From Sedimenticola sp. (GTDB taxonomy: Bacteria; Pseudomonadota; Gammaproteobacteria; Chromatiales; Chromatiaceae), in contig JALULB010000079.1 of assembly GCA_027041035.1 (NCBI GenBank), forward strand, positions 1-13,970: a stretch of 13,970 nucleotides of DNA. The letters are read 5' to 3'. The translations under genes were made by a program, and so were the position numbers. The notes below the pieces were generated by a model. It did not search any database, was not told where the DNA came from, and saw only the letters and a program-made list of their open reading frames with translations. Shown here one piece after another: positions 10,292-13,589 of this stretch (the stretch's first letter is position 1; the number at the start of each line of letters is the position of its first letter).

Positions 10292-12487
10292 TCACGGCAA
10301 CTCGTTGACCGCGACGCCGGCGATGCCGGTCGCATTCTCGAAGCCCTTGACCACCACGGTGTAGTCGCCGGGCGCCAGGGTCATCAGGATTGCTGATTCC
10401 AGTTCGTTGTCCGGCGCGAGACCGTTAGCCCGGATGATGTTCGCCGCCGAGGTGCTGCCCCAGTCGTCGTTCTCGCCGATCTTTTGACTGCCGGAGAACA
10501 CCTCGAGTACCGGGTCGCTCAGCAGATTGCTCAGACCGGAAGAACCCATCGTCGGGCCGAAACCGCGCAGCACGACGCTCTTCTCGCCCCCGCTGATGCG
10601 GAAGCCGGCGATCAGTACCTTGTCGCCGCCATCGACGAAGGCGCGCGTGGCAATGGCTTGCAGGCGCATGTTGTCCGGTAGTTCCAGGTCGTCGACGGCC
10701 AGTCCGCCGACGCCGGTGCCACCATCGGCGCCACGCAGGATGACGGTATAGGGTCCGGCGGGCAGTACCCGGTAGATTGCGGCTTCCCTTGGATCGTCGA
10801 GTCCCAGGCCGGCATCGATGATGCGATCGACGTTCGGCGTGTTCCGCCAACTGTCGTTCTCGGCAAGCAGCGTGGCGCCGGAGAACAACTGGATTTCCGG
10901 GTCGTTCAACACGCCGCTGATACCCGCGCTGGCGAGCGAAGGCCCGGCGCCGCGCGCGACGATCTTTGCCTCTCCGGTGCCGCTGGTTTTGAGACCGGCG
11001 ATGACTACCTCGTCACCGGTGCCGACCCAGGCACGCGACGCCAGGGTGCTGATGCGCGCCGCGTCCGCCGCGTTGCCGCGCAGGATATTCTCGATATCCT
11101 TGCCGGTGAGTTCGAAGCGACCGTAGAAGTCGGCCCCGGTTCTATTCGCGCAACTGGAGTCGCCGCCCCACAGGGTGCCGACGAGCTGCTTCGCGCTGTT
11201 GAACAGCGGGCCGCCGCTGCTGCCGGGTTCGGTGGTGCCCAGGTTCCAGTTGACATTCAACGGCGCGTCCAGGGAACGGTTGCCGAAGATATTGGCGATA
11301 TCACTGATGCGGCCGAAGCTGATCTTCTTCAGGTCGCCCTGGGGGTGATGGATGGCGGTGACGCTGCTGTTGATGGCTTGGCGGTCGGTCGTCCAGGCAG
11401 CGAAGCGCGCGCCGCCTGGCGGGGTGTCCAGCAGCTTCATCAGGCTGTAGTCGGAAAAGCTTTCATGCGCCATCAGCTGCGCGCCGCCGGAGCGCGAGGT
11501 GAGGCTGGTCGGCGCCGCGCTGAAGCATTCGGCGCGGCGGAAGAACCAGTAGGTGATCAGCGAGGAGGCGGTCGCCTGATCGGAGATGCAGTGTTCCGCG
11601 CTGAGAAAAAACGGGGTCTGCGTGCTGTTGTCCAGATCATTGATCAGGGTGCCGGTGCACAGAAAACTGCTGCCGTTTTCGACATACACCATCTTCGCCA
11701 CGCTGGTGCCGGTTTCGCCCCATGCCGCATCCTGACAGGCGATGTCTTCCTGGCAGAAGCCAGAGGCGTTGAGTTCTTGGAGATCCTTGGCGGTCGGCAG
11801 TACCACCAACTGCGAAATCCCGGAAATCGCCAGTTGGACCTTGCTTGGGTCGATGCCGGCCGGCAGGTAGATCTCGAGGCCGGCGCGTTCCCCCGGGATC
11901 ACCGGTGACCAGTAACCCAGGTCGGCGGGCTTGTCGGGCCTGGCGCGGAAGTTCTGGTTCAACAGATGGTGGATCCGCCTGCCGGTCGTCATGTCGATGG
12001 CCTGGTTACCGGGTTTCGCGTTATCGCCCGGCACGTAGAAGCGCAGCTCGGCGCGTGCCGGAAGGGCGATGATCTCCAGCCGGAAACGGATGCCGGCCGC
12101 GCCCTCCGCGGCGACCTCGACACGCGCGAAATGGCCGCCATCGGCGCTGTCCGTCCAGTTCAGGCGCCCCTTTTCCTGGAGCGACTGGGCGGCTTTCGGG
12201 ATGGCCCGCGAAAAGCCGATACGCATCACGCCGTTGGCACGTCTGCTCAGCCGGTTTTTCTCCGCCGGGGCGGCCGGCAGTTGGATGCGATACGGGCGGG
12301 GTAGTGCCTTTTGCGCGCTGGCCGTCTGCTTCAGATGCAGATCCGGGGCTTTTGCCGAGGCGTCCGCGTGTACCGGTTCGGAGGGGGCGGACAGGGCCAT
12401 TGCGGCGCTCCATCCCAGCAGGCCGCCGATCAGCAGCAGGCAGGCCGACAGACGGTGCGGGGTTCGACGTGGGGCATGGTCGTTCAT
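10292..12487 (-). CDS. Secreted lysyl-endopeptidase-like serine protease with C-terminal tandem repeats
   Basis: A 731-residue exported trypsin-fold protease. A signal peptide (about 1-31, hydrophobic ACLLLIGGLLGW) is followed by a propeptide-like region (about 40-238). The catalytic domain is at about 243-470: H299 in SAEHC, D346 in FSDYSLMKL and S424 in TEPGSSGGP form the triad, and six cysteines (245, 251, 277, 300, 321, 446) could form disulphides. GFCQEDIAC and DFYGRF resemble the start and end of Achromobacter Lys-C-type enzymes. Two homologous repeats follow at about 479-602 and 609-729. Lys specificity is not established here. GGAAGG at about 8 nt supports the ATG at 12487. Upstream lies the MITE at 12589-12740; ATTCTA at 12531-12536 (TAGAAT on this strand) is a weak candidate -10. 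Confidence 0.87.
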   Translation of the reverse strand: MNDHAPRRTPHRLSACLLLIGGLLGWSAAMALSAPSEPVHADASAKAPDLHLKQTASAQKALPRPYRIQLPAAPAEKNRLSRRANGVMRIGFSRAIPKAAQSLQEKGRLNWTDSADGGHFARVEVAAEGAAGIRFRLEIIALPARAELRFYVPGDNAKPGNQAIDMTTGRRIHHLLNQNFRARPDKPADLGYWSPVIPGERAGLEIYLPAGIDPSKVQLAISGISQLVVLPTAKDLQELNASGFCQEDIACQDAAWGETGTSVAKMVYVENGSSFLCTGTLINDLDNSTQTPFFLSAEHCISDQATASSLITYWFFRRAECFSAAPTSLTSRSGGAQLMAHESFSDYSLMKLLDTPPGGARFAAWTTDRQAINSSVTAIHHPQGDLKKISFGRISDIANIFGNRSLDAPLNVNWNLGTTEPGSSGGPLFNSAKQLVGTLWGGDSSCANRTGADFYGRFELTGKDIENILRGNAADAARISTLASRAWVGTGDEVVIAGLKTSGTGEAKIVARGAGPSLASAGISGVLNDPEIQLFSGATLLAENDSWRNTPNVDRIIDAGLGLDDPREAAIYRVLPAGPYTVILRGADGGTGVGGLAVDDLELPDNMRLQAIATRAFVDGGDKVLIAGFRISGGEKSVVLRGFGPTMGSSGLSNLLSDPVLEVFSGSQKIGENDDWGSTSAANIIRANGLAPDNELESAILMTLAPGDYTVVVKGFENATGIAGVAVNELP
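10301..10663 (-). repeat. C-terminal repeat 2 of the protease (residues 609-729)
   Basis: Begins RLQAIATRAFVDGGDKVLIAGF and contains VVLRGFGPT, LSDPVLEVFSG, GENDDW, ESAILMTLAPGDYTVVVKG and GVAVNE, in the same order as repeat 1. This is the beta-rich repeat often seen at the C-terminus of secreted or surface proteins. Confidence 0.85.
10682..11053 (-). repeat. C-terminal repeat 1 of the protease (residues 479-602)
   Basis: Begins ISTLASRAWVGTGDEVVIAG and contains IVARGAGPSL, LNDPEIQLFSG, AENDSWRN, REAAIYRVLPAGPYTVILRG and LAVDDLE. It aligns along its full length with repeat 2. Confidence 0.85.
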
Positions 12488-12580
12488 GTGGGTTTCCTTC
12501 CAGATTGATGCTTGTGCGTGCGAAACGGATATTCTACAGGTGAGCAGGGTGCGCGTTTGTGATATCCGGCCATAACCTTA

Positions 12581-12588
12581 AAAGAGAC
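12581..12588. repeat. Target site duplication, left copy (AAAGAGAC)
   Basis: The 8 bases immediately left of the MITE, identical to the 8 bases immediately right of it (12741-12748). Eight-bp duplications are characteristic of IS66-family transposition. Confidence 0.88.
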
Positions 12589-12740
12589 GTAACTACTCAG
12601 CTAACCGCTGAAATGCGCCAGCTCCGCGTTCAAAAATGGTCATTTACACTTGTAAACTCACATTTTTTGCCTTGATCTGACACATTTCAGCGGCGATCTG
12701 AGCAGTTACCCTTCATTTGATCTACTCGCTGAGTAGTTAC
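12589..12740. mobile_element. 152-bp non-autonomous MITE, IS66-family type
   Basis: The ends are perfect 13-bp inverted repeats: GTAACTACTCAGC (12589-12601) and GCTGAGTAGTTAC (12728-12740). They begin with GTAA as in the IS66 family and are flanked by identical 8-bp duplications. There is no transposase reading frame, so it must have been moved in trans. The left 27 bp (12589-12615) also match the reverse complement of 12683-12709 at 23 of 27 positions, giving a second, inner right end. The core is palindromic around 12649-12650: TTTACA-CT-TGTAAA at 12643-12656, enclosed by AAAAATG/CATTTTT at 12632-12638 and 12661-12667. Its AT content is clearly higher than that of the neighbouring genes. 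It could affect expression of the protease or rpe, but nothing here shows that. Confidence 0.87.
12683..12709. repeat. Internal second copy of the MITE end
   Basis: 27 bp matching the reverse complement of the left end (12589-12615) at 23 of 27 positions. It lies 31 bp inside the true right end (12714-12740), with which it shares the leading CATTT and most of the trailing GTTAC-side bases. The flank after 12709 (CCTTCATT) does not repeat the left flank, so this end was not the one used in the visible insertion. Confidence 0.8.
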
Positions 12741-12748
12741 AAAGAGAC
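12741..12748. repeat. Target site duplication, right copy (AAAGAGAC)
   Basis: Exact copy of 12581-12588, directly abutting the right inverted repeat of the MITE. Confidence 0.88.
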
Positions 12749-12899
12749 ATACGATAAACCGGATTTCCTTCGCTGTCCCGGCGCTCGGGGCATCGGCTGA
12801 TTCTCCGAAAGCTGAAAATCCCGGCGAAATCGGGTAAGGTGGCGGGCTTTATCCCAGAATCTGTCGGTATTGTACCGCTTTGACAACCGGAGAAGTTCC

Positions 12900-13589
12900 A
12901 TGGCTGATAACCTGATCGCGCCGTCCATCCTGTCCGCTGATTTTGCCCGTCTCGGTCCCGAGTGCGTGGATGTGCTGAACGCGGGTACCGATGTCATTCA
13001 TTTCGACGTGATGGACAACCATTATGTTCCGAACCTGACCATTGGCCCGCTGGTTTGTGACGCGCTGCGCAAGCATGGCATCGAAGCGCCGATCGACGTG
13101 CATCTGATGGTCAAGCCGGTGGATCGGATCATCCCGGATTTTGCCAAGGCCGGCGCGACCTATATCAGCTTCCACCCGGAGGCCTCCGAGCACATCGACC
13201 GTTCGCTGCAGCTGATCCGCGACGAAGGCTGCAAGGCCGGTCTGGTGTTCAACCCGGCGACACCGCTGGATTATCTCGACTATGTCATGGACAAGCTCGA
13301 CCTGATCCTGCTGATGTCGGTCAACCCGGGCTTTGGCGGCCAGAGCTTCATCCCGTCGACACTGGACAAGCTGCGCCAGGTACGCAAGCTCATCGATGCC
13401 TCCGGCCGTGATATCCGCCTGGAGGTCGATGGCGGCGTGAAGGCCAATAACATCCGCGAGATCAAGGAAGCCGGCGCGGATATGTTCGTCGCCGGCTCGG
13501 CGATCTTCGGTGCCGGTGACGACAACGATCCGAACCACTACGACAGCATCGTCAAGCAGTTCCGCGAAGAACTGGCCAAGGCCGGCTGA
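12900..13589 (+). CDS. rpe: Ribulose-phosphate 3-epimerase
   Basis: Interconverts D-ribulose 5-phosphate and D-xylulose 5-phosphate in the pentose phosphate (and, where present, Calvin) pathway. The 229-residue TIM barrel has the expected motifs: APSILSADF (7-15), the metal/catalytic residues H34 and D36 in [13 protein letters not shown]68 in DVHLMV, the phosphate-loop region [12 protein letters not shown] (139-150), catalytic D177 in DGGV, and VAGSAIF (197-203). Length matches the family. The start at 12900 follows GGAGAAG with normal spacing; an in-frame ATG at 12870 would add 10 unconserved residues. gph starts 5 bp downstream, the common rpe-gph arrangement. Confidence 0.97.

Follow-up and report, generated by a model that had tools for sequence, protein, structure and literature searches.

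A MITE with IS66-type ends and a doubled right end between a protease gene and rpe in Sedimenticola sp.

Insertion sequences of the IS66 family have GTAA termini. An 8-bp target duplication is listed for two Paracoccus members of the family (PMC3281130). Bacterial MITEs derived from other insertion sequence families are short and non-coding, have inverted ends, and show many copies or active movement by a borrowed transposase; MITEPsy1, for example, is 100 bp long, has a 4-bp duplication and is listed as "IS5?" (PMC3189936). Mu, Tn7 and IS21 have been described as carrying at least two transposase sites in one end, and IS21 needs both of its direct repeats, 23 bp apart (PMC10122671). The activity of CAST elements rises and falls at ∼10-bp steps of site spacing (PMC10201428). 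Plant tandem-TIR Mutator-like elements (MULEs) are mobile, conserve both TIR copies and outnumber the single-TIR forms in two families (PMC3310237). In the portions available of the open-access literature (including PMC3189936, PMC3281130 and PMC9769881) we found no paper on IS66-derived MITEs, nor, with PMC8024623 included, any description of a doubled-end architecture for IS66-type elements.

The element analyzed here shares GTAAC ends, with 11–16 bp in common, and an 8-bp target duplication with IS66-family insertion sequences (single-transposase members), but it has no transposase gene, and the IS66 elements that we found have single ends. It resembles the MITEs of other families in being short and non-coding with inverted ends and many copies, but the available part of the MITEPsy1 account (PMC3189936) describes no doubled end. 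With tandem-TIR MULEs it shares tandem ends that are both conserved and the existence of single forms, but those elements are eukaryotic, have long TIRs and come with no spacing rule in the sections available (PMC3310237). Tn7-like/CAST and IS21 ends likewise hold two or more transposase sites, but these elements are autonomous and have other transposases and other ends, whereas only one end of the MITE is doubled (PMC10201428, PMC10122671, as far as available). Judged from sequence, this appears to be a new MITE family of a familiar sort, and what seems to be new is its end architecture among IS66-type elements.

The window is a stretch of 13,970 nucleotides from an assembly of 2.26 Mb in 404 contigs that is 62.7% complete (G000). 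The element lies in the 412-bp gap between a protease gene and rpe (Table 1). The sequence-only reading had reported perfect 13-bp inverted ends and a perfect 8-bp duplication at 12581–12748, and both are present. Its "126-bp interior" contains a second right end that had been overlooked. A similarity of ∼27 bp, which it had assigned to the two ends, does exist between the left end and the inner right end, but the outermost right end has only 13 bp in common with the left end. The window copy is short, lacks a transposase gene and has terminal inverted repeats that match at 13 of 13 bp; copies are dispersed over at least 40 loci in G000, and a target duplication is present at many independent sites (see below). 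The window element is almost certainly a MITE.

Table 1. Features of the MITE and of the flanking genes in the window.
Feature	Position	Strand	Basis
Target duplication, left copy, 8 bp, AAAGAGAC	12581..12588	.	sequence
MITE, doubled-end form, 152 bp	12589..12740	+	sequence + copies
Left end GTAACTACTCAGC, 13 bp	12589..12601	+	sequence + copies
Centre around TTTACANNTGTAAA (12643-12656), similar in other genomes	12638..12666	+	cross-genome alignment
Inner right end CTGAGCAGTTAC; terminus of the 121-bp single-ended form	12698..12709	-	
Spacer, 19 bp, sequence variable; end-to-end distance 31 bp	12710..12728	.	
Outer right end CTGAGTAGTTAC; terminus used in doubled-end elements	12729..12740	-	
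Right 13 bp GCTGAGTAGTTAC, perfect inverted match to the left end	12728..12740		sequence
Target duplication, right copy, 8 bp, AAAGAGAC	12741..12748	.	sequence
Trypsin-like protease gene, 731 aa, PF13365; start codon 12487	10292..12487	-	
rpe, ribulose-phosphate 3-epimerase, TIGR01163; start codon 12900	12900..13589	+	

The sequence-only reading had proposed a search of the genome with 12589–12740. It had named two results that would refute it, conservation of the 152 bp with its flanks at this locus across distant relatives, or the lack of both other copies and elements with matching ends in this or related genomes; neither was obtained. The G000 loci found are separate and 85–100% identical over the matched part; their number is a lower bound (40 scored among 117 candidates), and the remaining 39 rows of the similarity search are the same loci on the opposite strand. 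The nearest other copies share 97% identity with the window element, so that a "fairly recent" transposition, as had been suggested, is only moderately borne out. With up to one mismatch allowed, G000 contains 88 + 89 occurrences of the 13-bp end, against 0 + 0 for the pattern read backwards. The repeat and its duplication are far beyond chance. Eight of 92 genomes searched (G000 counted) match the MITE at E ≤ 1e-3. Two of the element-bearing relatives are of the same genus, and G065, from another family, carries a 152-bp form that is 84% identical. Within the window's family the doubled-end pattern was found in 7 of 210 genomes and 4 of 61 genera, including G241 and G243, again at a distance of 30–31 bp. 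Element length across the set ranges from 62 to 274 bp, and the 62-bp elements of G038 and G480 consist of almost nothing but ends. No MITE match was found in the plasmid and phage collections. Two viral contigs with a doubled motif had no duplication at it and were dropped as probable chance.

We then considered 117 doubled-end elements with a left end and flanks, for which a duplication was not required; many of the loci behind them were found by the end pattern, which biases the set towards intact ends. At the outer end, 102 elements have target copies that agree at 7 or more of the 8 bases (82 of them perfectly); at the inner end none do. Two comparisons shifted by 4 bases gave no duplication in the 117 elements each. 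Among the 15 elements without a duplication at this level is L060, in which a perfect pair of CTTGCGTC adjoins an end that carries a small insertion. The duplications sit at the outer and never at the inner one of the two sites, so an outer end, where there is one, is the functional terminus.

The fetched loci of 8 genomes contain 109 distinct insertions whose target copies agree to this same degree (7 or more of 8 bases), of which 103 are doubled and 6 were scored as single. Five of the latter, in G000 (four of 121 bp and one of 168 bp), have the duplication at the inner end; in the sixth, from G002, the inner end has decayed. The inner end is thus the terminus where the outer one is absent, because single-ended copies carry the duplication there; these copies are rarer, and they have also moved. 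In all 97 elements that could be classified, the tail lies to one and the same side of the core; 6 were unclassifiable.

The distance between the two right ends was 20–22 or 30–32 bp in 114 of the 117 elements, although the search pattern permitted 14–44 bp and the count 15–48 bp. Individual distances were 20 (1 element), 21 (13), 22 (1), 30 (6), 31 (81), 32 (12), 36 (1), 41 (1) and 44 bp (1). The 41-bp element is L060. L047, at 36 bp, is an exception to the spacing rule; its duplication is perfect. The 44-bp case belongs to an array in G065 (L177, contig C132) in which five ends follow one another in 22-bp steps. In this array the outermost end alone reads TAGTTAC and the inner ones CAGTTAC or CAGCTAC, a base difference between outer and inner ends that was also observed in ten aligned sequences. 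Between genomes (five rows: the G000 consensus, G002, G065, G001 and G036; loci found by similarity only) mean pairwise identity was 90% at the left end, 81 and 85% in the arms, 86% in the centre, 97% at the inner end, 47% in the spacer and 92% at the outer end.

Whether the right end is a two-site, helix-phased end is finely balanced. In our favored reading an IS66-family (DDE) transposase would mobilize the miniature, non-autonomous transposon in trans, joining its GTAAC ends to a target of which 8 bp are duplicated. The conserved inner and outer sites of the right end are spaced at about two or three helical turns and therefore would both face the same side of the DNA. Joining would take place at the outer site in doubled-end elements, and the inner site would probably bind a further transposase unit that helps the complex to assemble or to orient; in elements that lack the outer site, the terminus would have been the inner site instead. 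We tentatively propose, with slightly less than an even chance of being right, that IS66-type transposition uses an asymmetric synapse with one left site and two helically phased right sites, of which these MITEs are a record. The freely changing spacer, the distances of about two or three turns and the five-end array at 22-bp steps would be the traces of such a synapse.

The main rival is that the second right end arose by chance and was passed on by descent: a 121-bp ancestor of the MITE would have acquired it on one or a few occasions, and tails of 31 and 21 bp would since have been inherited, while the inner site has no function. This is a serious possibility, although we hold it to be somewhat doubtful. 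Single-ended copies have duplications, as such a history would predict, but the similarity-found G000 copies with a duplication (loci L001–L040) comprise 18 doubled and 4 single ones. Among 23 copies of G000 the identity of the inner end is 96.4%, not above that of the arms (96.4 and 94.8%), whereas between genomes the spacer is near-random and both ends are strongly kept. The spacers have an A+T-rich middle in common (by eye), and therefore may be homologous. Core length in the 121-bp core form is equally stable (120–122 bp), and therefore a stable tail length need not mean selection. Against inheritance alone, however, the two distances differ by about one DNA turn and recur in several genomes, and the array repeats its ends at 22-bp steps.

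Returning to the two-site end, the logic of multi-site ends would, by analogy, fit the MITE, with its conserved inner site that is not terminal, its variable spacer and a spacing of about two or three turns. Tn7-like elements have TG-type termini and duplicate 5 bp of target. With an 8-bp duplication and GTAAC termini the MITE was rejected as a Tn7-like multi-site element, and any likeness in the way it works may be limited to the presence of multiple sites in one end. If the two-site end is true, the requirements of the enzyme can already be read in outline from over 100 natural insertions, namely a 12–13 bp core, two preferred distances and a fixed polarity; end recognition in the little-studied IS66 family would become directly testable, and there would be a bacterial parallel to the plant tandem-TIR elements.

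The link to IS66 rests on ends and target duplications. The MITE family has GTAA termini and 8-bp duplications, and IS66 elements with matching ends were found elsewhere. The C-terminus of TnpC adjoins an end of the MITE type in three element-bearing genomes: GTAACTACTCAGC in G032 (13/13), GTAACTACTCAC in G038 and a decayed GTATCTACTCAC in G001. The pattern of a TnpC C-terminus followed by TGAGTAGTTAC was present in 4 of 210 genomes of the window's family, and a slightly narrower pattern in 21 stretches of the named genome collection, 5 of which (L107, L109, L111, L113 and L114) have a second end within 3.5 kb. L107 (1709 bp, with an open frame of 518 aa) is flanked by TGAGAATC twice, and L113 (1691 bp, frame broken) by GAAAGCCT twice, both perfect 8-bp duplications; they are IS66 elements with GTAACTACTC(A/G) ends, and NF033517 and PF03050 identify the L107 protein as an IS66 transposase, which matched no solved structure by sequence at E ≤ 0.01. 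No duplication was present in L109 (600 bp), L111 (1712 bp, 493-aa frame, from a Sedimenticola MAG) or L114 (1566 bp, broken). The end match is longest in a 960-bp copy that carries IS66 gene pieces on a plasmid of Marinobacter sp. M3C, with a GTAACTATTCAGCTCA end and AAAACTTT twice; its 16-bp end differs by one base from the GTAACTACTCAGCTCA left end of several relatives. A plasmid of Oceanisphaera sp. carries a 1570-bp IS66 copy without a duplication.

Mobilization of the MITE is very probably of IS66 type, and the two statements taken together, a MITE mobilized in this way, are only slightly less secure. The earlier view of a non-autonomous MITE with IS66-type ends is supported by the many copies and by IS66 genes bounded by matching ends elsewhere. 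Full IS66 elements with such ends, which it had expected, exist in related and other genomes, but none was found in G000, where a PF03050 search of the 404 contigs (62.7% complete) gave no IS66 transposase. PF03050 matches were obtained in 5 of the 7 other element-bearing genomes, mostly as fragments, and none in G036 and G065. These absences and the single ends of the IS66 elements count against our favored reading. No doubled end was seen in L107, L111, L113, L114 or either plasmid copy; a TnpC C-terminus followed by CTGAGTAGTTAC was found in 0 of 369 genomes of the class, and the 6-kb stretches of the two full IS66 copies in G038 show no such end. As a candidate for such an element we examined the region between facing MITEs on G065 contigs C52 and C113 and rejected it: judged by eye, its open frames resemble a LuxR-type regulator and a Lon-like protein rather than a transposase.

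The lack of an IS66 transposase in G000, G036 and G065, and the shortness of the end common to both kinds of element, would also be compatible with a partner that is an unknown non-IS66 transposase with similar ends and 8-bp duplications. We regard this as unlikely: IS66 transposase genes directly adjoin such ends in G032, G001 and G038, whole IS66 elements combine ends of this type with 8-bp duplications, the Marinobacter end is one base off the left end of several relatives, and no other transposase was seen within such ends among the stretches examined for IS66.

Mobility of the family was also considered at orthologous sites. The joined flanks of the 109 insertions were compared with sister-genome loci already fetched, and two alignments spanned a junction. 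The clean one involves a 202-bp copy in G480 (L190; duplication 7/8). The genes around it have the same order in the congener G065 (L179), which lacks both the element and one of the two target copies there. A separate copy of G065 occupies an intergenic gap close by; G480 does not have it, but the gap has diverged too far to define an exact empty site. The other alignment (104 bp, 76% identity) was set aside as it looks like another repeat, because its query matched several loci. G000 (L058) and G002 (L227) carry copies at different positions within one intergenic region. At the window locus, homology to the rpe contig of G001 starts only at 12887, and that contig ends 161 bp past the rpe coding match; homology to the protease contig of G002 is lost at 12544. 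G002 (same genus, 99% complete) gave no rpe match, perhaps owing to an assembly gap, and the similarity of other rpe loci to the window lies mostly in coding regions.

The intergenic position and the folding as one long hairpin (RNA z −7.1 and −9.4; DNA z −6.1 for the single strand) would suit a repeat that does not move, either of the REP/BIME type or a hairpin with an RNA or regulatory role. Such a repeat is extremely improbable, as it is already contradicted by the 8-bp duplications of most copies and disfavored by the absence of another copy at the orthologous site of a congener and of any Rfam match in 12301–13000 at E ≤ 1.

Insertions lie within frames of at least 150 aa in 28 of 46 cases in G000, 5 of 17 in G002, 10 of 22 in G065 and 9 of 10 in G480, compared with fractions of 0.83, 0.60, 0.78 and 0.79, respectively, for random positions; this comparison is crude and its outcome mixed across genomes. 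The sequence-only reading had placed the element in a divergent promoter region and had suggested that it could alter either gene; a scan of 12440–12930 gave no consensus promoter- or terminator-like site. A promoter-like stretch of rpe at 12813–12840 lies between the element and rpe, outside the element. Among 13 relatives examined, 4 have a similar pattern ahead of rpe and 8 have its GTAAAGT-like part; the sister genome G001 shows neither. The neighboring protease has a C-terminal stretch of the DVUA0089 family (NF038127, residues 622–719).

Within the element, the TTTACANNTGTAAA palindrome at 12643–12656 is followed by CTCACATTT; the arrangement is similar in other genomes and resembles a protein-binding site. 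A small tail hairpin (CTACTC-GCT-GAGTAG) was rejected, as it is not kept, by eye, in the tails of other genomes. The G000 copies L042, L046 and L048 hold runs of ten N and several copies are at contig ends, as if the assembly broke at these repeats. Longer forms with modules inserted in the core were observed in G000 (L042, L045, L214, L006 and L157), G065 (L172–L174 and L181) and G480 (L165, L189, L190, L249 and L253). The modules are a GGCAATTGCTCC(A)TGCATTGCC hairpin in G000 and G065, CCTACATGGATGTAGG in G065, and TCCATGGATGGA in G480 and one G000 copy; they are possibly other small repeats that landed within the MITE. In its core insert and tail the G000 copy L157 is like those of G480, from another family, and unlike the other G000 copies displayed, a likeness that perhaps reflects horizontal transfer.
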